NCBI GenBank assembly: GCA_016178075.1
Contig: JACOUA010000392.1
Location: 1-35,740 of the forward strand
From: Acidobacteriota bacterium
GTDB taxonomy: Bacteria; Acidobacteriota; Vicinamibacteria; Vicinamibacterales; JACQTH01
Direction of reading: 5' to 3'
DNA: 35,740 nt
The translations under genes were made by a program, and so were the position numbers. Under the pieces are notes generated by a model. It was not told the origin of the DNA. It ran no database searches and saw only the letters and a list, made by a program, of their open reading frames with translations. Positions 1 to 35,740 of the stretch are shown piece by piece (the stretch's first letter is position 1; each line of letters starts with the position of its first letter).

Positions 1-107
1 GGCGCGACGACCAAGCATATCGGGAATATGTGAGGGAGGAGCAACGCAGCCAGACGGGATGCAGCGCCCGCCGAATGCAGCGGGACTTTCACCACGGGCT
101 GCTAGGG
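1..107. repeat. Structured intergenic repeat, copy 1 (degenerate, left-truncated by window)
   Basis: This stretch aligns without gaps to 35639-35722 at the other end of the window; a hand count gives 60 of 84 columns identical. It can fold into a hairpin from base 4 to 42: CATAT (16-20) pairs with ATATG (26-30) around CGGGA, with shorter stems and tandem G.A mismatches at 6-7/39-40 and 9-10/36-37. A second hairpin pairs 67-71 with 80-84. The blocks GAGCAACGC, CGGGATGCA and GCCGAATGC are common to both copies. GCAGCC (46-51) can also pair with GGCTGC (97-102) in this copy only. The left end may be cut by the window edge. No ORF is evident. Confidence 0.75.
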
Positions 108-3978: not shown

Positions 3979-4751
3979 AAGCGCTGGGATGCCGGGGCGT
4001 CCGGCGACGGCTGGCGGCGTTTCACGACGGTGAGCTCTCGATCGTCGATCGCGCGTCGGTGCAGCGTCACCTCAGCGCGTGCCGGCGCTGCAGCCTCGAG
4101 CTCCATCACATGGCGCTCATCGGCAGTGCCGTTCGAGCCGCGGCGGACCTCGGACAGCATGAGTCGGACGACTTGAGCGGACTTCGAGCCGGCATCGTCG
4201 GACGGATGGAGGCCGAGCGTCAGACGTCCTGGAGCTGCAGGCTTCGGGACCTGTTCGACGACCTGCACCTGGTCTGGGCCGGGTTGGGGGCCGCGGCCTT
4301 CACCACTGCCTGTGTCGGCGTGCTGATGGGTCTCTTTCACTTTGCCACCGCCGAGCGCCCGGATTCGATTGCCGCGATGATGGACGCGCTCGCCTCGCCT
4401 GGGTCGAACGTCAACCCGGTCAGCGTCGATGGGCGGACGATGCAGCTGCCGCGGGCTGACGCCGACAGGGCCGTCTGGGTGATCGGGCCGAACGACGATG
4501 CCGTGTTCGCGTTGTCGGCGGTGGTCACGCGCGAGGGGCTGCTGACGAATCTCGAGTTCCTGCAAGCGCAGGAGCGCACCGGGCAGGGACTGGAAGCCCG
4601 TGGCAGAGAATCGAGCGAAATGTTGGGCTTGCTCGACGCCGCTTCACGCGCGCGCTTCGCCCCGGCGCGCGGGCTCGGCGACTCCCCCATTGCCGTGAAT
4701 GTGGTATGGCTGCTCGCGCACACGACGGTCAGGGGCAAGCTGCACAGTTAG
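3975..4751 (+). CDS. Membrane-bound anti-sigma factor with ZAS-type zinc finger
   Basis: A 258-residue probable inhibitor of the upstream ECF factor. The N-terminal cytoplasmic domain carries HLSACRRC (His32, Cys36, Cys39), the HxxxCxxC zinc-binding signature of zinc-finger anti-sigma factors (zf-HC2/ZAS). One membrane helix follows at about residues 98-121, and the rest is a periplasmic domain of unknown fold. The start overlaps the sigma stop (ATGA), so the two proteins are probably made in coupled amounts. The stop codon lies at the edge of a heptad-repeat hairpin that separates it from the convergent propeller gene. The redox or envelope signal cannot be told from the sequence. Confidence 0.85.
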   Translation: MKALGCRGVRRRLAAFHDGELSIVDRASVQRHLSACRRCSLELHHMALIGSAVRAAADLGQHESDDLSGLRAGIVGRMEAERQTSWSCRLRDLFDDLHLVWAGLGAAAFTTACVGVLMGLFHFATAERPDSIAAMMDALASPGSNVNPVSVDGRTMQLPRADADRAVWVIGPNDDAVFALSAVVTREGLLTNLEFLQAQERTGQGLEARGRESSEMLGLLDAASRARFAPARGLGDSPIAVNVVWLLAHTTVRGKLHS

Positions 4752-4755
4752 TTAT

Positions 4756-4829
4756 CAGTTCTCAGTTCTCAGTGTTCAGTTTCAAAACGCGCATTCGAAC
4801 TGAGAACTGAAGACTGAAAACTGAGAACT
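4756..4829. repeat. Heptad inverted repeat, family A (CAGTTNT), copy 1; possible bidirectional terminator
   Basis: The left arm 4756-4782 is built of CAGTTNT heptads and the right arm 4797-4829 of the complementary AACTGAN units, with a 14-base loop. Mismatches fall mostly at the variable base of the heptad. It fills the gap between two convergent genes, and the stop codon of the minus-strand propeller gene (4828-4830) is the last triplet of the right arm. A long RNA hairpin would form in both directions, but no U-tract follows. Confidence 0.8.
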
Positions 4830-7068
4830 ATTTCTTCACCTCGCCCCGCGCCGTGGCGACGTTGTTCATCGCGTCCACAACTCGAATCACGACGCTCTTG
4901 GTGGCCGCCTCGGCATCGAGCACCAAGTCGAACAGCTCGACGCGCGAATCGGAGATGCCGTCGCGCGGATAGATCCGCTGCCAGCGGTCGGCGTCCAGCG
5001 AGTACTCCACACGCTGAACGGCCGACTGTTCGTCCCGAACTTCGAACGAGAGCACGTAGCGATCACCTTGCCGCCTGACGCCTTGCATGGTGACCGACGG
5101 CGGGGTGTTGTCGATGTCGAAGCTCGTGCTCTCGAGCTCGCCGACGAGCGACATGCCGGGAGGGTTCGACGGCGCGTCGGACGCCTGGATCTTGATGAAG
5201 TATGTCCCGTTCGGGACCGACGTCGTATCCCAGACGAAGATCGCATCCGAGAGGCCGCGCTTGAGCATCTTCCACGACGTTTCGCCCTCACGCCGATAGA
5301 GGACGTCGAAGACCAGCGTGTCCTCGTTTTCATCCTCTGACTTCCAGACGAACGTCTGCAGTCCCTTCTGGTAGATGCGGCGTCCAAGCGCGGGGCCCGT
5401 CGGAGGGACCGGCTGGCCTTGCTGGGAGGGCGGCGGCGTGGACGGCCGGGTCGTCGTCGCGTCTTCCGGGAGTCCGGCAATCTCGAGCTCGCCGGTTGAG
5501 AACGGCTTCTGGAACACGCTTCCGGGCGGGTGAACGGTGATCTCGTTGACCTTGGGGCGCAGATTCCGTGGCAGGAAGGCCGCCGTCACCGAGGTCAGGA
5601 CCGGACCCTCGCCCTTTCCCGCCAGAACCGCCTTCCACTGAAGGTAGCGGGCCTTTGGACTGCTGATCTGCTCGCCGACCGAGTTCTTGTATGGTCCGGC
5701 CCACTCGCTCCAGGTCGAGTCAGGCGTGGCGGTATTGCCCGATCGCGTGTAGAGCTCGATGCTGCTCGTTGCCGGTGTCGATCCTCGCCAACTCACTGTT
5801 CCCCACGCGGCGACCGTCTCGGCGTCACGAACTTTCGATTGATAGGTGCCGCGATCGCCCCGTGCCGACCCGAGCCGGAACAACTTGCCTGGATTCGCCG
5901 TGGCGTAGTAATTGCGCCCGCTGCTGTCGGCCATGAACATGGTCACCTGCTGGGCCGCCGCGCGCGTGAGCAGCGTGACCTGCGTGGGATCACCGGCGAC
6001 CCTGAAGATCTTGCCCTCACTGCCGGTCCCGATGATCACCCCGCCGTCTGCGTCGAAGGAGATGTCGTAGGGCGTGTCCTGGCGCGACTCCCAGATAGCG
6101 TCCCACACGCCGTCGGGCGTGATGCGATACACGGCGCCCCTGAGGCTGCGACGATCGTCGCGTCGCGCCGTCCGCTGCTCGGGTGCCGGTTGGACTGCGA
6201 CGCTCGCGATCGAAATGGAGGTGATTTCGGTCGACACCGATGGCGTCGGCGTCGTCCGAGGGGCTTCGGGAACTGCGCGATCGGCCGGCGTCTCCTGTGC
6301 GGCCGGCCGGCTGCTCACGGCCGCTGCGTAGAGGTTGCCTTTCTGGTCGAATCGCAGCGCATGGATCTCGCGAAACGCCGAGTCGAGCAGCACGAACGCC
6401 TTGCCCTGACTGTCGACCCGGAAAACCTTGCCCGGCGCCTCGGTGCCGACCACCAGGTTGCCCGAACGGTCCAGGGCGAGCGACACCGCGTGCGTCGTTT
6501 CGGTTCGATAAAAAGGGACGCCCTTGCCGTCCGGTCCGATCTTGTAGATGACGCCTTTCTCGCCCGTCCCGGCGTAGAGAGCGCCGGCGCGATCAAAGAC
6601 GAGCGACCAGATGTACTTGTCGTCCGGGTCGAAGAAGGCCGTCGCCGACCCCGAGGCGTCGACTTTGTAGACTTTGCCTTCGGGGGAGGTGCCGACGTAG
6701 ATCGAGCCGTCCGGACCCTGGGCGAGCGCGTGCACCTCGAGCTCGGGCGAGTCGTAGAAGACCGTCGCCTTGCCGCCGGACGGCACGCGGAAGACCTTCC
6801 CTTCGTTTCCGCTTCCGAGATACATCGCGCCGTCGCGCGTCTGCAGGATCGTCCAGAGAAACGGCGCGGTGGTTTCGTCGACGAGCTCGGTGGCGGGAGC
6901 CAGTAGTAGTCGGCCGGCGCTGTCAATCGAGAGGTTCTCGACCTCGCCCTCCAGGAGCTCGGCTTGGGTCGAGACCTGCCAGATGATGGGGGAGGCTGCC
7001 CAGACTCCGGCCACGAACGCGGTGAGGGCGAGGGATACAGCGAGAAAACAGCCGCGCGAGGCCTTCAA
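4828..7068 (-). CDS. Exported beta-propeller protein with C-terminal Ig/FnIII-like region
   Basis: A 746-residue secreted or periplasmic protein. A signal peptide is evident (KASRG, then CFLAVSLALTAFVAGVWA). Residues from about 40 to 400 carry repeated blade motifs such as DGAMYLGSGNEGKVFRV, DGSIYVGTSPEGKVYKVD and GALYAGTGEKGVIYKI, typical of NHL/SMP-30-like or regulator propellers. After a Thr/Pro-rich stretch comes a beta-rich part with PNGTYFIKIQASDAPSNPP and DNTPPSV, resembling fibronectin/Ig-like domains. The start is TTG 7068, overlapping the stop of the upstream S55 gene (TTGA); it places the signal peptide exactly at the N-terminus. No enzymatic motif was found. It may bind or sense a ligand together with the coupled S55 protein. 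Confidence 0.8.
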   Translation of the reverse strand: MKASRGCFLAVSLALTAFVAGVWAASPIIWQVSTQAELLEGEVENLSIDSAGRLLLAPATELVDETTAPFLWTILQTRDGAMYLGSGNEGKVFRVPSGGKATVFYDSPELEVHALAQGPDGSIYVGTSPEGKVYKVDASGSATAFFDPDDKYIWSLVFDRAGALYAGTGEKGVIYKIGPDGKGVPFYRTETTHAVSLALDRSGNLVVGTEAPGKVFRVDSQGKAFVLLDSAFREIHALRFDQKGNLYAAAVSSRPAAQETPADRAVPEAPRTTPTPSVSTEITSISIASVAVQPAPEQRTARRDDRRSLRGAVYRITPDGVWDAIWESRQDTPYDISFDADGGVIIGTGSEGKIFRVAGDPTQVTLLTRAAAQQVTMFMADSSGRNYYATANPGKLFRLGSARGDRGTYQSKVRDAETVAAWGTVSWRGSTPATSSIELYTRSGNTATPDSTWSEWAGPYKNSVGEQISSPKARYLQWKAVLAGKGEGPVLTSVTAAFLPRNLRPKVNEITVHPPGSVFQKPFSTGELEIAGLPEDATTTRPSTPPPSQQGQPVPPTGPALGRRIYQKGLQTFVWKSEDENEDTLVFDVLYRREGETSWKMLKRGLSDAIFVWDTTSVPNGTYFIKIQASDAPSNPPGMSLVGELESTSFDIDNTPPSVTMQGVRRQGDRYVLSFEVRDEQSAVQRVEYSLDADRWQRIYPRDGISDSRVELFDLVLDAEAATKSVVIRVVDAMNNVATARGEVKK

Positions 7069-9237: not shown

Positions 9238-10719
9238 ATGCGCATCTGCGTGACGGTGACGGCGGACCGGATGAGCGACCTGCGGAGGCGGCGCGACGAG
9301 GCGGCTCGCGCCGGCGCCGATCTCGTCGAGCTTCGCCTCGACGGCGTCGGCGACCTCGACGTGCCCGGGGCGCTCGAGGGGCGCACGGGCCCCGTGATCG
9401 TGGCTTGTCACCCCGCCTGGGAGGGGGGACGGTTCGGGGGATCGGAAGAGGAGCGGGTCCGGATACTGACGCAAGCGCTGGCGCTGGGCGCGGATCTGGT
9501 CGACATCGAGTGGCAGGCGGACCTTGCAAAGGTGCTCGACGCGCGCATGCTCGGTCGCGTGGTGCTGTCGCATCACACCTTCGACGGGCTGCCCGCGGAC
9601 CTGCGCGAGCGGGCGCTGGCGATGCAGGCGATCGGCGCGCGTGTGGTGAAGGTCGCGGTCACGCCCAGGAGTCTTCGGGATCTGTTGCGGCTTCGCCAGA
9701 GCGGCTGCGTGCTCGAAGACGGACGAAAAGTGCTGCTGGCGATGGGCGTCGTGGGATGGTCGACGCGGCTCCTTCCGTGGCGCTTCGGATCGGCGTGGAC
9801 GTATGCGGGCGGCGTCTCGGCGGTGGGACAGCTGTCCCCGTCCGAGATGGTCGAGGAATTCAGGTGTCGTGAGGTGACGCGGGATGCGGAGCTGTACGGG
9901 GTCGTCGGGTCACCCATCGCGCATTCGATGTCTCCGGTGATGCACAACGCGGCTTTCCGCGCGTTGAACCGCGACGCGATCTACGTGCCGCTCGAGAGCG
10001 GCGATGCGGATGATCTGCTGGAGTTCGCCAAAGAAATGCGTTTTGCCGGGCTCAGCGTTACCGCGCCCCTGAAGGTTCCGCTCTTCGAGCGGGCGGACCA
10101 GGTTGACGAGCTCAGCGAGGGGGTTGGCGCGTGCAACACGCTCAGATTCCGCGAGGGGCGCGTGGAAGCCACGAACACCGACGTGGCGGGGTTTCTCGCC
10201 CCGCTCGAGCGCCGAGGGATCCGACTCGAGGGTCTGCGGGCCGCGCTCGTCGGCGCCGGCGGCGCGTCCCGCGGAGTTGCCTTCGCGCTCGGCTCGCGCG
10301 GCGCGCGCGTCACGATCCACGCGCGGCGCCCGGAACAGGCACGTCAGACGGCGACGGCGACGGGCGCCTCGTGCGGTCCGTGGCCTCCCCAGTCGGGCAG
10401 TTGGGATCTGCTCGTGAACGCGACGCCTGTCGGCACGCTCCCTCGTTCCGAAGAGACGCCGTTCCTGGGTCCTTTTGAGGGGGCAATCGTGTACGACTTG
10501 GTCTACAACCCGCCGCGATCACGGCTGCTTCGGGAAGCCGCGGGCGCGGGGTGCCAGACGATTGACGGCCTCGAGATGCTCGTCGCGCAGGCCTGTCTGC
10601 AGCTCGAATGGTGGACGGGCGCGCGCGCGCCTGAAGCGGCAATGCGCGCCGCGGTGGAGCGGAAGCTCGACCTGAGAGCTGATGGCGCTGGGAGCCAAAA
10701 GCTGAGAGCTGAGAGCTGA
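9238..10719 (+). CDS. aroDE: Bifunctional 3-dehydroquinate dehydratase (type I) / shikimate dehydrogenase
   Basis: A cytosolic 493-residue fusion for shikimate pathway steps 3 and 4. Residues 1 to about 210 are a type I dehydroquinase: ELRLDG (31-36), His113 in SHHTF and Schiff-base Lys138 in VVKVAVTP. Residues from about 218 are shikimate dehydrogenase: GSPIAHSMSPVMHN, catalytic Lys279 in SVTAPLKVP (most relatives have NVTIPHK), ACNTL, Asp315 in NTDVAGF, and the NADP-binding GAGGASRG. The order matches the plant DHQ-SDH fusion. The start is ATG 9238, right after the attenuator U-tract; a TTG at 9217 lies inside the terminator and was rejected. The C-terminal tail from about residue 480 is encoded by family B repeat DNA. 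Confidence 0.93.
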   Translation: MRICVTVTADRMSDLRRRRDEAARAGADLVELRLDGVGDLDVPGALEGRTGPVIVACHPAWEGGRFGGSEEERVRILTQALALGADLVDIEWQADLAKVLDARMLGRVVLSHHTFDGLPADLRERALAMQAIGARVVKVAVTPRSLRDLLRLRQSGCVLEDGRKVLLAMGVVGWSTRLLPWRFGSAWTYAGGVSAVGQLSPSEMVEEFRCREVTRDAELYGVVGSPIAHSMSPVMHNAAFRALNRDAIYVPLESGDADDLLEFAKEMRFAGLSVTAPLKVPLFERADQVDELSEGVGACNTLRFREGRVEATNTDVAGFLAPLERRGIRLEGLRAALVGAGGASRGVAFALGSRGARVTIHARRPEQARQTATATGASCGPWPPQSGSWDLLVNATPVGTLPRSEETPFLGPFEGAIVYDLVYNPPRSRLLREAAGAGCQTIDGLEMLVAQACLQLEWWTGARAPEAAMRAAVERKLDLRADGAGSQKLRAES

Positions 10720-10724
10720 TAGCT
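10673..10724. repeat. Heptad repeat, family B (AGCTGAN), inside the end of aroDE
   Basis: Direct heptads TGAGAGC/TGATGGC and then AGCTGAGAGCTGAGAGCTGA (10700-10719) run through the last codons of aroDE and its stop (TGA 10717-10719), ending 4 bases before the trpE ATG. The repeat supplies the last few residues of the protein. No matching inverted arm is present in this copy. Confidence 0.7.
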
Positions 10725-10728
10725 TGTT

Positions 10729-12207
10729 ATGAAACAAACGACCTACGAGGAATTCGTCGAGCTCGCCAAGCGCGGGACGTTCGTCCCCGTGTGCAAAGAG
10801 CTCATGGCCGACCTGCTGACGCCGGTGTCGGCGTTCTTGAAGATCGCCGAGCACTCGGACTACGCGTTCCTGCTCGAAAGCGTGGAGGGCGGGGAACAGG
10901 TCGCGCGGTATTCGTTCCTGGGGAAGGATCCGTTCCTGATCCTCAGGGCACGGGACGGGAAGACCATCATCGACCGCGCCGGCCAGACGACGGAAGCCGA
11001 CGAGCCCTTCATCGCCGCATTGCGCCGACTCATGGCCGATTTCCGGTCCCCGTTCGTGCCAGGCCTGCCGCGCTTCACCGGCGGGGCCGTCGGCTACGTC
11101 GGCTATGACGCGGTTCCCTGGTTCGAGTCCGTGACCCTCCAGACGCCAGGCCCGGAGACGTCGAGCCCGACCGAGGATCTGGCCGGCTTCATGCTGTTCG
11201 ACACTGTCCTGGCCTTCGACCACGTTCAACACCGCATCCTGATCATCGCCAACGCCCGCATCTCGGCCGACGACGACCTGCAGGCGCTCTACCAGTTTGC
11301 GTGCGCGAAGATCCAGTTCCTCGAGCGGGAGCTCGACCGGGCGCTCTCGCACGCCGATGCGCCTTCCGCGCCGCCGCTCGAGGTCCGCTCCAATACGACG
11401 CGCGAGGCGTTCGAGCAGAAGGTCAGAACGGCCAAGGAGTACATCGCCGCCGGCGACATCTATCAGGTCGTGCTCTCGCAGCGGTTCGAAGCTGAGGTCG
11501 TCACGGAGCCCTTCACCGTCTATCGTGCGCTGCGTCACGTGAACCCGTCGCCGTACATGTTCTTCATCCGCATGGGCGATCTCTCCATGATCGGCGCCTC
11601 ACCCGAGATGCTCGTGCGCGTGGAAGGTCGGCGCATGGAGACCCATCCGATCGCCGGGACCCGGCCGCGTGGACACACGGAAGACGAGGATCAGCGGTTG
11701 GCCGACGAGCTGAAGGCAAACGAGAAGGAACGGGCCGAGCACGTCATGCTGGTCGATTTGGGTCGAAACGATCTGGGACGGGTCGGAGAGTATGGTTCGG
11801 TGCGGGTGCCGCAGTTCATGGCGCTCGAAAAGTACTCGCACGTCATGCACCTCGTCTCGATCGTCGAAGGGCGGCTGGCGGAGGGTCACGATCGTCTGGA
11901 CGCGCTGGCGGCGTGCTTTCCGGCCGGGACCGTGTCGGGTGCCCCCAAGGTGCGAGCGATGGAAATCATCGCGGAGCTCGAGCCGGCGCGCCGCGGCATC
12001 TACGCCGGGGCCGTCGGCTACCTCGACTTCGCCGGCAATCTCGACTGCTGCATCACCATCCGAACGATCGTGATGGTCAACGGTCGTGCGTACGTCCAGG
12101 CGGGCGCCGGCATCGTCGCCGACTCGAACCCGGCGGCGGAATACGAGGAGACGCGCGACAAGGCGCGCGCGCTGGTCCGCGCGCTCGAGCTGGCGCAAGG
12201 GGTTTAA
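10729..12207 (+). CDS. trpE: Anthranilate synthase component I
   Basis: The 492-residue large subunit converts chorismate to anthranilate with ammonia supplied by TrpG, the first committed step to tryptophan. The N-terminal domain has LLESVEGGEQVARYSFLG, the region that in TrpE binds inhibitory tryptophan. The chorismate-binding domain has PIAGTRPRG, NEKERAEHVMLVDLGRND and CFPAGTVSGAPKVRAMEII. The length is usual. ATG 10729 follows the family B repeat by 4 bases and lacks a clear ribosome site. It is separated from trpG by a repeat hairpin. Feedback inhibition by Trp is expected from the family motif. Confidence 0.96.
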   Translation: MKQTTYEEFVELAKRGTFVPVCKELMADLLTPVSAFLKIAEHSDYAFLLESVEGGEQVARYSFLGKDPFLILRARDGKTIIDRAGQTTEADEPFIAALRRLMADFRSPFVPGLPRFTGGAVGYVGYDAVPWFESVTLQTPGPETSSPTEDLAGFMLFDTVLAFDHVQHRILIIANARISADDDLQALYQFACAKIQFLERELDRALSHADAPSAPPLEVRSNTTREAFEQKVRTAKEYIAAGDIYQVVLSQRFEAEVVTEPFTVYRALRHVNPSPYMFFIRMGDLSMIGASPEMLVRVEGRRMETHPIAGTRPRGHTEDEDQRLADELKANEKERAEHVMLVDLGRNDLGRVGEYGSVRVPQFMALEKYSHVMHLVSIVEGRLAEGHDRLDALAACFPAGTVSGAPKVRAMEIIAELEPARRGIYAGAVGYLDFAGNLDCCITIRTIVMVNGRAYVQAGAGIVADSNPAAEYEETRDKARALVRALELAQGV

Positions 12208-12220
12208 GGACGGAAGTGTT

Positions 12221-12300
12221 CAGTTTTCAGTTATCAGTTCTCAGTCGTTGGCCGAACACTGGGGGCGAACTGAAAACTGATAACTGAGAACTGACAACTG
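12221..12300. repeat. Heptad inverted repeat, family A, copy 2, between trpE and trpG
   Basis: The left arm 12221-12245 (CAGTTTT, CAGTTAT, CAGTTCT units) and right arm 12268-12300 (the complement) flank a 22-base loop. Mismatches fall mostly at the variable sixth base. The right arm ends two bases before the trpG ATG, so trpG has no ordinary Shine-Dalgarno region. No U-tract follows, so read-through into trpG is expected. Confidence 0.85.
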
Positions 12301-12301
12301 A

Positions 12302-12868
12302 ATGGTCTTCGTCCTCGACAACTACGACTCGTTCACCTTCAACCTCGTCCAGTATCTGGGCGAGCTGGGGGTGGAGGTCCTCGTGCGCCGGAACGATCAG
12401 CTCACCGTCGACGACATCGTCGGGCTCCGTCCGGCCCGGATCGTGATCTCGCCCGGCCCCGGACGGCCGGAAGAGGCTGGCATCACGGTGGATCTCATTC
12501 GGCGCTGCGGCAGCGAGGTCCCGATTCTCGGTGTCTGCCTCGGGCATCAGGCCATCGGCTACGCCTTCGGCGGAAAGATCGTCAGGGCGCCGCGGCCGAT
12601 GCACGGCAAGACGTCCTCGATCGAGCACGATCGCCGCGGTGTGTTCACCGGTTTGTCGACGCCGTTCGTGGCGTCGCGGTATCACTCTCTGGTCGTGGCC
12701 GAGGAGGGGCTGCCGGAGGAGCTCGAAGTGGCCGCGCGAACGCGTGAGGACGGGATCATCATGGCACTGCGGCACCGGACGCTGCCGGTTCATGGCGTCC
12801 AGTTCCACCCGGAGTCGATCCTCACGTCGAACGGCCGGCAGATGCTGCGCAACTTTCTGGAGAGCTGA
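12302..12868 (+). CDS. trpG: Anthranilate synthase component II (glutamine amidotransferase)
   Basis: This 188-residue class I glutamine amidotransferase feeds ammonia to TrpE; by family analogy it may also serve 4-aminobenzoate synthesis. It begins DNYDSFTFNLVQYL, has the oxyanion segment SPGPGRPEEAG, nucleophile Cys79 in GVCLGHQ, and His169/Glu171 in QFHPES. The ATG follows directly on the family A hairpin, and the stop lies in a family B repeat. The spacing to trpD is 21 bases. Confidence 0.95.
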   Translation: MVFVLDNYDSFTFNLVQYLGELGVEVLVRRNDQLTVDDIVGLRPARIVISPGPGRPEEAGITVDLIRRCGSEVPILGVCLGHQAIGYAFGGKIVRAPRPMHGKTSSIEHDRRGVFTGLSTPFVASRYHSLVVAEEGLPEELEVAARTREDGIIMALRHRTLPVHGVQFHPESILTSNGRQMLRNFLES

Positions 12869-12887
12869 GCTGAGAGCTGATAGCTGT
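12860..12887. repeat. Heptad repeat, family B, across the trpG stop
   Basis: GAGAGCTGAGCTGAGAGCTG and the following ATAGCTG span the last codons of trpG (stop 12866-12868) and end two bases before the trpD ATG at 12890. It has the same unit and the same position relative to a start codon as the copy before trpE. No inverted partner arm is present. Confidence 0.65.
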
Positions 12888-12889
12888 AT

Positions 12890-13933
12890 ATGTTCACCCC
12901 CCTGCTCGAGAAGCTGACCCGCAGCCGCGATCTCACGACCGAGGAAGCGGCGGCCGCGATGACGGAAATCATGGAGGGCCGCGTGACCGCGGCCCAGATC
13001 GCCGGGTTCCTCGTCGGGCTGGCGATGAAAGGCGAGCGGCCGGACGAGGTCGTTGGCCTTGCCCGGACGATGAGGGAGCATGCGGTGAAGCTGTCGCGGC
13101 CCTATCCGGAAGCGTTCGACATGTGCGGGACCGGAGGCGATCGATCGGGCACCTTCAACATCTCGTCGGTGGCCTCCGTCGTGGTGGCTGCGGCGGGCGT
13201 CATGGTCGCGAAGCACGGAAATCGATCGGTGTCGAGCCGCTGTGGCAGCGCGGACCTTTTCGAGTCGCTCGGCGTAAAGACGAGCGCGTCGCCCGCGATC
13301 GTGGAGCGATGTCTGCGAGAGGCGGGGCTGGCGTTCCTGTTCGCCCCGACGTTTCATCCGTCCATGCGCCACGCGGCGCCGGTCAGGCGCGAGCTGGGGG
13401 TGCGGAGCGCCTTCAATCTGCTGGGACCGCTGACCAACCCGGTCGGGCCGCGACGACAGATCGTCGGGGTCCCGCGGCCCGAGTTTACGGAGCTTCTGGC
13501 GCGGGCGTTGGCGCTTCTAGGGTCCGAGCGGGCCTGGGTCGTGCACGGAGCGGACGGCATCGACGAGGTCTCGACGACCGGCTACACGAAGATCTCCGAA
13601 TGCCATGCCGGGACGGTCAACACCTTCTACGTTCATCCCTCGGAGTTCGGCGTGGGAAAGGCCTCTTCGCCGGATCTCCTGGGCGGCGACGCAGCGGCCA
13701 ATGCCGCGATCGCGCGTGAGGTGTTGAGCGGGGCGCGGGGACCGCGCCGCGACGTCGTGCTGCTGAACGCGGGGGCCGCGTTGTTCGTGGCGGGCCACTC
13801 GGCAACTGTCCGGGCCGGCATTGCGGCCGCGGAGCAGAGCATCGATTCCGGCCGGGCCACGCAGGTCCTGGCGCGGCTCGTGGTGGTTTCGCAGGAGCCC
13901 GAAGTCTCAGGTGCACTCAGTGGATCGGTGTGA
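12890..13933 (+). CDS. trpD: Anthranilate phosphoribosyltransferase
   Basis: A 347-residue enzyme that joins anthranilate to PRPP, step 2 of the Trp branch. The N-terminal helical domain (SRDLTTEEAAAAMTEIMEG) is followed by the PRPP-binding CGTGGDRSGTFNISS, KHGNRSVSSRCGSADL and FLFAPTFHPSMRHAAPVRRELG, then NLLGPLTNP. The length is usual for the family. It is not fused to TrpG, unlike in enterobacteria. ATG 12890 is preceded by repeat DNA and not by a ribosome site. Confidence 0.96.
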   Translation: MFTPLLEKLTRSRDLTTEEAAAAMTEIMEGRVTAAQIAGFLVGLAMKGERPDEVVGLARTMREHAVKLSRPYPEAFDMCGTGGDRSGTFNISSVASVVVAAAGVMVAKHGNRSVSSRCGSADLFESLGVKTSASPAIVERCLREAGLAFLFAPTFHPSMRHAAPVRRELGVRSAFNLLGPLTNPVGPRRQIVGVPRPEFTELLARALALLGSERAWVVHGADGIDEVSTTGYTKISECHAGTVNTFYVHPSEFGVGKASSPDLLGGDAAANAAIAREVLSGARGPRRDVVLLNAGAALFVAGHSATVRAGIAAAEQSIDSGRATQVLARLVVVSQEPEVSGALSGSV

Positions 13934-18495: not shown

Positions 18496-19385
18496 AGCTC
18501 CCCGTCATCCAGCCGGACTCGGTCAATCCCGCTGACACCGCGCCACCCGTCTTCTCCAAGGTCGGTATCGTCGGCCTCGGCCTGATTGGCGGTTCCATCG
18601 CGCTGGCGGCGCGGCGGGCCTGGCCCCGCGGGCTGGTCATTGGCGTCGACCACAACGACGTGCTGGAGAAGGCGATGGTGCTCCACGCCATCGACGTGGC
18701 TGCCGCCGACCTCGTCATCATGGCCGAGGCCGATCTGGTCATCCTGGCGGCGCCGGCCCGCCGCAACATCGAGCTGCTCAGCCAGATCGCGGATGCGATA
18801 CCGGAAGCCGCGGTCGTCACCGACACCAGTTCGACCAAGCGCGAGATCGTCGCCGCCGCTCGGGCGCTACCCTCGAGGCTGACCTTCATCGGCGGCCACC
18901 CGCTCGGCGGGGCGGCCCGGGGCGGCATCGATCACGCGACGGCCGATCTGTTCAAGGGCCGACCCTGGCTCTTTACTCCGGAGCCTGGCACCTCGCCTGC
19001 CGCCCTCGCATCGCTGCAGCGTTTCGTCAGCGCCCTCGGCGCGGGGCCAAAGACGATGGAGGCCGAGGCGCACGACCGTACGCTGGCGTTCTTGAGCCAC
19101 CTCCCACAGTTGACCGCCAGCGCACTGATGTCCGTCATCGGCGACGCTGTGGGCGCCGACGCCCTGGCGCTCGCGGGCCGGGGCTTGGCCGATACGACCA
19201 GGCTGGCGTCGAGCCCGGCCGGTCTCTGGCGCGACGTCTGCGCCACCAACGCCGATAACATCGCCGCGGCGCTCGACCTCCTCATCGAGCGGCTGCAAGA
19301 GCTGCGCGTGGATCTCGCCGACGGGGATCGACTCGCGGAAGTATTCGACGCGGCCAATGAATGGCGAGAGGAACTGAAGAAATAG
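18492..19385 (+). CDS. tyrA: Prephenate dehydrogenase
   Basis: A 297-residue NAD(P)-dependent enzyme converting prephenate to 4-hydroxyphenylpyruvate for tyrosine; an arogenate preference cannot be excluded. The N-terminal Rossmann motif is VGIVGLGLIGGSIALA, followed by DTSSTKREIV, FIGGHPLGG with the active-site region His, and the helical dimer domain (HDRTLAFLSHLPQLTASAL). No chorismate mutase or ACT domain is fused. GTG 18492 overlaps the aroF stop (GTGA). The gene is last before a family A hairpin, probably the operon end. Confidence 0.93.
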   Translation: MKLPVIQPDSVNPADTAPPVFSKVGIVGLGLIGGSIALAARRAWPRGLVIGVDHNDVLEKAMVLHAIDVAAADLVIMAEADLVILAAPARRNIELLSQIADAIPEAAVVTDTSSTKREIVAAARALPSRLTFIGGHPLGGAARGGIDHATADLFKGRPWLFTPEPGTSPAALASLQRFVSALGAGPKTMEAEAHDRTLAFLSHLPQLTASALMSVIGDAVGADALALAGRGLADTTRLASSPAGLWRDVCATNADNIAAALDLLIERLQELRVDLADGDRLAEVFDAANEWREELKK

Positions 19386-19438
19386 TTCACAGTTTTCAGT
19401 TCTCAGTTTTCAGTAAACTGTGAACTGAGAACTGTAAC
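19385..19438. repeat. Heptad inverted repeat, family A, copy 3, after tyrA; possible operon end
   Basis: The left arm 19385-19409 and right arm 19415-19438 are complementary CAGTTNT-type heptads with a loop of only 5 bases, giving a strong hairpin. It begins at the last base of the tyrA stop and ends 11 bases before the TTG start of the next gene. No U-run follows. Confidence 0.8.
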
Positions 19439-19449
19439 CTGTCACTCTC

Positions 19450-26806: not shown

Positions 26807-26819
26807 GAAGAACCTACAC

Positions 26820-26901
26820 CAGTTTTCAGTTCTCAGTAGTCAGTTCTCAGTTCAGCAAGGACGGAAACAACTGAAAACTGAGAACTGATAACTGAAAACT
26901 G
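26820..26901. repeat. Heptad inverted repeat, family A, copy 4, between convergent genes
   Basis: The left arm 26820-26854 and right arm 26867-26901 are complementary CAGTTNT heptads around a 12-base loop. Five units per arm make it one of the longest copies. It separates pepA (+) from the small membrane protein gene (-), a position fitting a bidirectional transcription barrier. Confidence 0.85.
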
Positions 26902-26938
26902 CACCACACGGGAATGCAATACGGAATAAGGGCGAGTT

Positions 26939-35448: not shown

Positions 35449-35451
35449 AGA

Positions 35452-35567
35452 AGCTCTCAGCGTTCAGCTGTCAGCTATCAGCTCGAGAGAAGGCTGCCCG
35501 GCGGCGCGGCCGGCACCCCGGGACCCACGAAAGCCGCTGAGAGCTGACAGCTGAGAGCTGATAGCTT
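35452..35567. repeat. Heptad inverted repeat, family B, with GC-rich loop
   Basis: The left arm 35452-35484 (CAGCTNT heptads) and right arm 35536-35567 (AGCTGAN heptads) are inverted around a 51-base GC-rich loop. This is the only family B copy in the window with both arms. It separates nth from the terminal element. Confidence 0.8.
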
Positions 35568-35580
35568 AGTGGGGCACTTA

Positions 35581-35740
35581 GTGGTCCGTCTCATAAATAC
35601 GGCGACGCACCGAGGGCGCCGAGGCGCCCGCCCCGCAAGGCGCGAGGAGGGACAATACCGGGCGTATTCGACCGACGAGCAACGCCGCGGGGCGGGATGC
35701 ATCGGCGGCCGAATGCCGCCGTATTTATGAGACGGGCCAC
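35581..35740. mobile_element. MITE-like 160-bp element with 24-bp terminal inverted repeats; structured repeat copy 2
   Basis: The ends 35581-35604 and 35717-35740 are inverted copies with a single mismatch; the shared core is GTCTCATAAATACGGCG. No ORF is present inside. The interior from 35639 onward is homologous to window positions 1-84 and carries the same hairpin: AATAC (35654-35658), CGGGC, GTATT (35664-35668), with tandem G.A mismatches at 35644-35645/35677-35678 and 35647-35648/35674-35675. A GGGCGCC/GGCGCCC palindrome lies at 35614-35629. The right end coincides with the window edge, so more may follow. Confidence 0.7.

Follow-up and report, generated by a model that had tools for sequence, protein, structure and literature searches.

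Miniature inverted-repeat transposable elements (MITEs) of bacteria, which are non-autonomous, are usually viewed as what is left of defunct insertion sequences, reduced to their ends, with the hairpin regarded as a by-product. The Correia/NEMIS, ERIC/IRU (RU-1), RUP, and QMITE2 families give hairpin transcripts, some bacterial MITEs affect mRNA via RNase III or RNase E, and QMITE2 copies lie chiefly in 3' untranslated regions (PMC10969869, PMC2229807). Here, we analyzed a diverged pair of repeats that lie at the two ends of a 35,740-nt stretch of Acidobacteriota DNA (the whole of which is referred to as the window). Like Correia/NEMIS, ERIC/IRU, RUP, and QMITE2, the element to which these repeats belong falls in the range of 100 to 200 nt, has inverted-repeat ends and a short target duplication, is intergenic, and occurs at high copy number; its transcript is likewise predicted to form one long stem-loop, and, judging by its sequence, its movement would also depend on an insertion sequence whose similar ends are served by a transposase acting in trans. 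Unlike those MITEs, it has a quantified covariation over very diverged copies, tandem G.A steps, and a strand asymmetry in its wobble pairs. Its core spans several end types and several phyla, and its target often holds a stop codon. The comparison with ERIC and NEMIS was made with their published descriptions. The word "compensatory" is absent from both MITE reviews (PMC10969869, PMC2229807), and in the open-access literature we found no description of this element family, nor of strand-asymmetric covariation in a MITE core.

REP/BIME and REPIN sequences with RAYT (PMC3733652, PMC3116915) resemble the element in being dispersed palindromic repeats that are intergenic and present in many copies per genome. 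The element is, however, larger (about 160 nt), duplicates its target, and shows no link to Y1 transposases. We conclude that the repeats are almost certainly copies of a MITE, and we assign a probability of roughly 80% to the whole explanation, namely, a MITE whose ends depend on transposases and whose conserved core folds, with one strand under selection.

Copies in the window and across genomes

The preliminary description had aligned positions 1-84 with 35639-35722 without gaps and counted 24 differing columns, and our recount gave exactly this number. Both stretches are parts of a larger element of about 160 nt (164 to 168 nt), the features of which are listed in Table 1. The hairpin of copy 2 reaches the contig end, past which its right-hand target copy lies, and its two terminal inverted repeats are 96% complementary over 24 nt (repeat search of the window). 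The contig begins within copy 1, which therefore lacks its left arm; further contigs of the same assembly also terminate at or within the element. The right end of copy 1 (83-104, minus strand) matches TAGCAGCCCGTGGTGAAAGTCC, which we refer to as end type T2. The structured core is common to elements with differing ends (alignments A1 and A4).

Table 1. Coordinates of the element copies and their parts in the window
Feature	Position	Strand	Evidence
Copy 2, whole element (left target copy and hairpin)	35577..35740	+	Covariance-model match, 181 bits, E 2.6e-34, model positions 1-168
CTTAG, left target copy of copy 2	35577..35581	+	CTNAG duplication statistics
Left terminal inverted repeat = outer stem, left arm (GTGGTCCGTCTCATAAATACGGCG)	35581..35604	+	24-nt inverted repeat
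Right terminal inverted repeat = outer stem, right arm	35717..35740	+	24-nt inverted repeat
Conserved structured core, about 110 nt	35607..35716	+	Alignments A1 and A4; 63 sequences with <86% identity
Basal tandem G.A step	35612-35613 with 35711-35712	+	GA/GA in 49 of 63 sequences
Apical arm with three tandem G.A steps	35644..35678	+	GA/GA in 57, 57, and 49 of 63 sequences
Apical G.A steps	35644-35645/35677-35678, 35647-35648/35674-35675, 35651-35652/35670-35671	+	
Copy 1, partial element (apical arm, right arm, and right inverted repeat)	1..101	+	Same core as copy 2
CTAG, right target copy of copy 1	102..105	+	Sequence; 4-bp duplication for T2 ends from empty site

A distinct repeat family is also found in the window. 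It consists of arrays of AACTGA/AGCTGA-type short units, mostly intergenic (4740-4844, 10693-10731, 12205-12300, 12867-12892, 19374-19442, 26811-26904, and 35451-35567). These are hairpin-like repeats that also have inverted arms (e.g., 26820-26852 with 26869-26901), and one of the arrays adjoins copy 2.

An exact three-block pattern matched 14 times in the element's own genome and in 105 stretches of the genome collection, which came mostly from Acidobacteria and also from Eisenbacteria, Rokubacteria, and Euphemobacter. A covariance model (R1) built from 37 diverse copies gave 131 matches at an E value of ≤0.01 in the own genome, a few of which represent the same copy on the opposite strand. 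It also matched 32 of 60 relatives and, in a sample of 396 genomes of the phylum, 42. Another Acidobacteria MAG carries 102 copies; two Eisenbacteria genomes carry 7 to 8 and Euphemobacter 7, spread over several contigs; and the single copy in a Rokubacteria genome may represent contamination. The element is numerous within genomes and patchy among relatives, and 202 unique copies were collected overall. The own genome also holds shortened elements of 125 to 140 nt (L285 to L290), which keep the core while most of the outer stem is gone.

Fold of the element and asymmetry between its strands

Covariation was scored without a structural prior in an alignment of 77 copies, and most of the top scores fell on canonical pairs that nest within one hairpin, with pairs 75:105 (CG 37, GC 35), 78:102, and 48:134 ranking first. 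Pair 75:105 corresponds to pair 8:38 of the preliminary description, which had read five compensatory pairs between copy 1 and copy 2 in one hairpin (8:38, 11:35, and 12:34, all CG/GC; 16:30, CG/AT; 20:26, TA/CG). All five are present as described, and 8:38 is the strongest unsupervised signal among the 77 copies. Two further pairs, 67:84 (CG/GT) and 69:82 (CG/GC), are also correct as column readings, but the second hairpin to which they had been assigned does not hold: the true partners lie in the left arm (pairs 48:134 and 46:136 and the outer stem), which is absent from copy 1. A folded element is supported, as proposed, but as one long nested hairpin rather than two hairpins joined by linkers. 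The linker blocks, which had been called fixed, are exact only in part; among 128 copies collected without requiring these blocks, GAGCAACGC was found in 99, CGGGATGCA in 72, and GCCGAATGC in 31. A by-eye reading of CGCCGAGGC with GCATCGGCG as a pseudoknot was rejected, as this pairing is nested and part of the one long hairpin.

Copies were then re-collected with the model, to avoid bias from the search pattern, and 62 representatives with <86% identity were combined with the window copy (alignment A4). Across 61 pairs, 92.1% of cells were paired, compared with 72.1% in shuffles, and this fell to 29 to 43% when partners were slid by 1 to 3 columns; none of 500 shuffles equaled any of the observed pairing values, although the sequences are related by descent and neither these tests nor the strand tests below are fully independent. 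Changes on both sides were found in 50 of the 61 pairs, including 26 of the 27 pairs of the outer stem. RNAalifold, unaided, returned essentially the same hairpin. The window copy folds with -108.2 kcal/mol (z = -10.6), and its complement is weaker (-101.0 kcal/mol; z = -8.0). At the gathering score, Rfam gave no match in the window, which agrees with the preliminary description, in which the element was not recognized as a named riboswitch or ribozyme; under permissive settings the best match had an E value of 0.32 and was on the opposite strand.

Both of the GA/GA steps that had been read as shared (6-7:39-40 and 9-10:36-37) are present in copy 1 and copy 2, and the third is found in copy 2 only, as described. 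Between the apical steps, the Watson-Crick pairs flip from CG to GC while the steps themselves stay. In some subfamilies the basal step is a Watson-Crick stem, and in one recent subfamily GA pairs with TC in the apical arm. A kink-turn was considered and rejected, since the AAC bulge is two G-C pairs away from the nearest G.A step and not adjacent to it, as such a motif requires.

For a double-stranded inverted repeat, G.T and A.C mispairs are expected to be equally frequent. On the strand that bears the G.A steps, however, G.U outnumbers A.C by 175 to 40 overall, with 74 to 19 in the outer stem (15:2 by columns, P = 0.002; 35:3 by sequences) and 101 to 21 in the core (19:6 by columns; 44:5 by sequences). 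Recent substitutions within tight clusters are strand symmetric (G>A, 88; C>T, 84; A>G, 78; T>C, 70), so mutation bias is no explanation for the G.U excess. Recent changes lean slightly to G.U over A.C (49:35 at one cluster threshold and 29:15 at another), and selection may act on each copy or solely on the lineages that spread, as these counts are compatible with both. Together, the G.U excess and the symmetry of recent mutations suggest that the G.A strand folds, as RNA or as single-stranded DNA (ssDNA), under selection, which we consider very probable from the alignments. The proposal that a folded single strand with tandem G.A pairs is under selection is thus strongly supported by covariation, retention of the G.A steps, and wobble asymmetry.

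Ends, target duplication, and a partner insertion sequence

The terminal inverted repeats are 20 to 24 nt long, and the end sequences are of several types. Where CTNAG is found at both ends, N is the same in 35 of 40 copies against 18 expected, and none of 20,000 shuffles was as high. In genome G040, one copy sits in another repeat, and the other copies of that repeat represent the empty site. There, C-CTGG-G has become C-CTGG-[CAG...CTG]-CTGG-G, a clean 4-bp duplication; among the sequences compared, this is the one inserted copy with a matching empty site. Terminal inverted repeats and target duplications thus mark the carrier of the folded core as a transposable element (a MITE), a point that the preliminary description had not seen.

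A search by end sequences revealed T2 ends paired about 1.46 kb apart in G040. These bound an insertion sequence of 1457 bp with an open frame of 476 codons (a 454-amino-acid protein from the first ATG), the product of which contains DUF772 and DDE_Tnp_1 domains. Its best NCBIfam model is IS1182 at 170.5 bits, below the cutoff of 270, and the next is IS5. The element resembles IS1182/IS5-like sequences in its T2 ends (CAGCCCGTGGTGAAAGTC) and CTAG-type flanks and differs in its core, which is absent from the 1457-bp insertion sequence. Remnants of this insertion sequence adjoin T2 ends in other carriers, and its protein is found in 12 of 60 relatives. Within copies of the T2-ended insertion sequence, the covariance model gave no significant match to the core; the MITE as an internal deletion of this insertion sequence was rejected on this basis. 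Genome G004 carries the insertion sequence seven times but lacks the core, which shows that the insertion sequence can do without it. The autonomous partner was found for one end type, T2; the own genome (87% complete) lacks this partner, as do most carriers.

At two loci (L248, G014:C39:47165-47214; L249, G017:C37:26184-26240), T2 inverted repeats stand nearly back to back. These 50- to 60-nt palindromes with CTAG flanks are apparently minimal MITEs without the core. The insertion sequence without the core and the coreless T2 palindromes indicate that the ends explain movement and that the core is an addition. As candidate partners, Y1, general DDE_Tnp_1, and DDE_Tnp_4 transposases showed no consistent link to the element by presence or adjacency; the T2 partner came to light only when end sequences were paired. 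A truncated end beside a foreign stretch (L120) was rejected as an autonomous element, since its short frame matches nothing.

Location, alternative explanations, and a possible role

With a rough codon-based gene finder, which gave a sensible gene map on the window, 4 copies fell inside gene calls versus 165 between genes (copies with two near gene neighbors), with 80.5% of the sequence called coding. In tandem gene pairs, 73 copies were sense and 43 antisense (P = 0.007), a modest bias given the rough gene finder. In 63 of 170 cases (36 of 100 sense and 27 of 70 antisense), a flanking gene ends at -5 or -4 from the first base of the element, which places its stop codon within the duplicated CTAG or CTNAG. 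An insertion at such a target does not disrupt the gene, and the 3' untranslated region then opens with the hairpin. A role as ssDNA may also be compatible with the sense bias, because orientation relative to genes correlates with replication direction.

The pairing could also arise in an ordinary MITE whose fold has no function, from the inverted repeats that a transposase needs together with template switching between the arms (quasipalindrome correction), which would copy one arm onto the other and generate compensatory changes without selection. The matching ends of the element fit this explanation, as do the double-sided changes in 26 of 27 outer pairs, which arm-to-arm copying predicts. 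However, such copying would erase G.A steps and bulges, yet GA/GA is kept in 49 to 57 of 63 sequences while neighboring pairs flip. It is also strand symmetric, whereas the excess of G.U over A.C extends to the outer stem, and an autonomous insertion sequence without the core indicates that the core is not needed for transposition by that enzyme. We therefore consider a fold without function unlikely. Systems such as REP/RAYT, IS200/IS605, and attC, in which a tyrosine enzyme recognizes a folded strand and moves ssDNA, are not known to make a target duplication. Movement of this kind would suit a long, imperfectly paired hairpin that conserves its mismatches on one strand, and Y1 genes are present in 6 of 10 carriers examined. 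It is nonetheless quite improbable here: the element does duplicate its target, its ends match a DDE transposon, no strong covariance-model match was found at loci around Y1 genes, and no Y1 transposase match was found in G014 (at least 16 copies), G018 (at least 46 copies), G040, or G049, all of which carry many copies. The REP-type tyrosine transposase that the preliminary description had suggested looking for is not supported, and the ends match a DDE (IS1182/IS5-like) insertion sequence instead. Movement as ssDNA is largely refuted by the empty site, while the core alone may have an ssDNA role.

Strong covariation, strand asymmetry, a gene-adjacent location, and the mild sense bias would also be expected of a repeated cis-regulatory RNA (a riboswitch, leader, or terminator), but this is very unlikely for copies that have inserted at unrelated loci and duplicated their targets there, in either orientation and often at gene ends. 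They are also many per genome and patchy between relatives, and they have no Rfam match at the gathering score.

For a MITE with transposase-dependent ends and a selected, folded core, DDE transposases would act in trans on the ends and move the element as double-stranded DNA, and the differing end types would mean that the same core is carried by, or has adapted to, several transposases. We lean toward the G.A strand working as RNA rather than as ssDNA. It might be transcribed by read-through from the gene whose stop codon adjoins it and could then fold into a hairpin with regular kinks to which a protein of the host or the element would bind, and the bound hairpin might make the insertion tolerable or aid persistence of the element. 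The alternative would be a role of ssDNA in replication or transposition. More speculatively, and in our view less likely than not, the unit under selection could be the core itself, as a functional structured RNA (or ssDNA) of a new class that has spread through several bacterial phyla by swapping ends and riding different DDE transposases, with its kinked G.A hairpin recognized by a specific protein that decides persistence. Hundreds of diverged copies make the fold statistically testable: the fold of one strand, non-canonical steps included, is kept through changes in sequence and even in the ends. In this natural system one can ask what a MITE core contributes to the element or its host, and the covariance model is ready for annotating it in Acidobacteriota genomes.

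Several loci in the collection have a composite structure. At L128/L151 (G000:C349:5192-5607) and L131 (G000:C452:2706-3096), two adjacent elements have one CTNAG in common, which indicates that the target from one insertion was reused by the next. A second GC-rich hairpin (of the GGGGTCCCCAGCGCGG...CCGCGCTGGGGACCCC type) is found within an arm of the element at L048, L105, L113, L128, L131, and L255, as if a smaller repeat had inserted into a larger one. At L046, the element is split by about 280 nt carrying TTTGGACAGCA motifs, a stretch that resembles the remnant of another insertion sequence.
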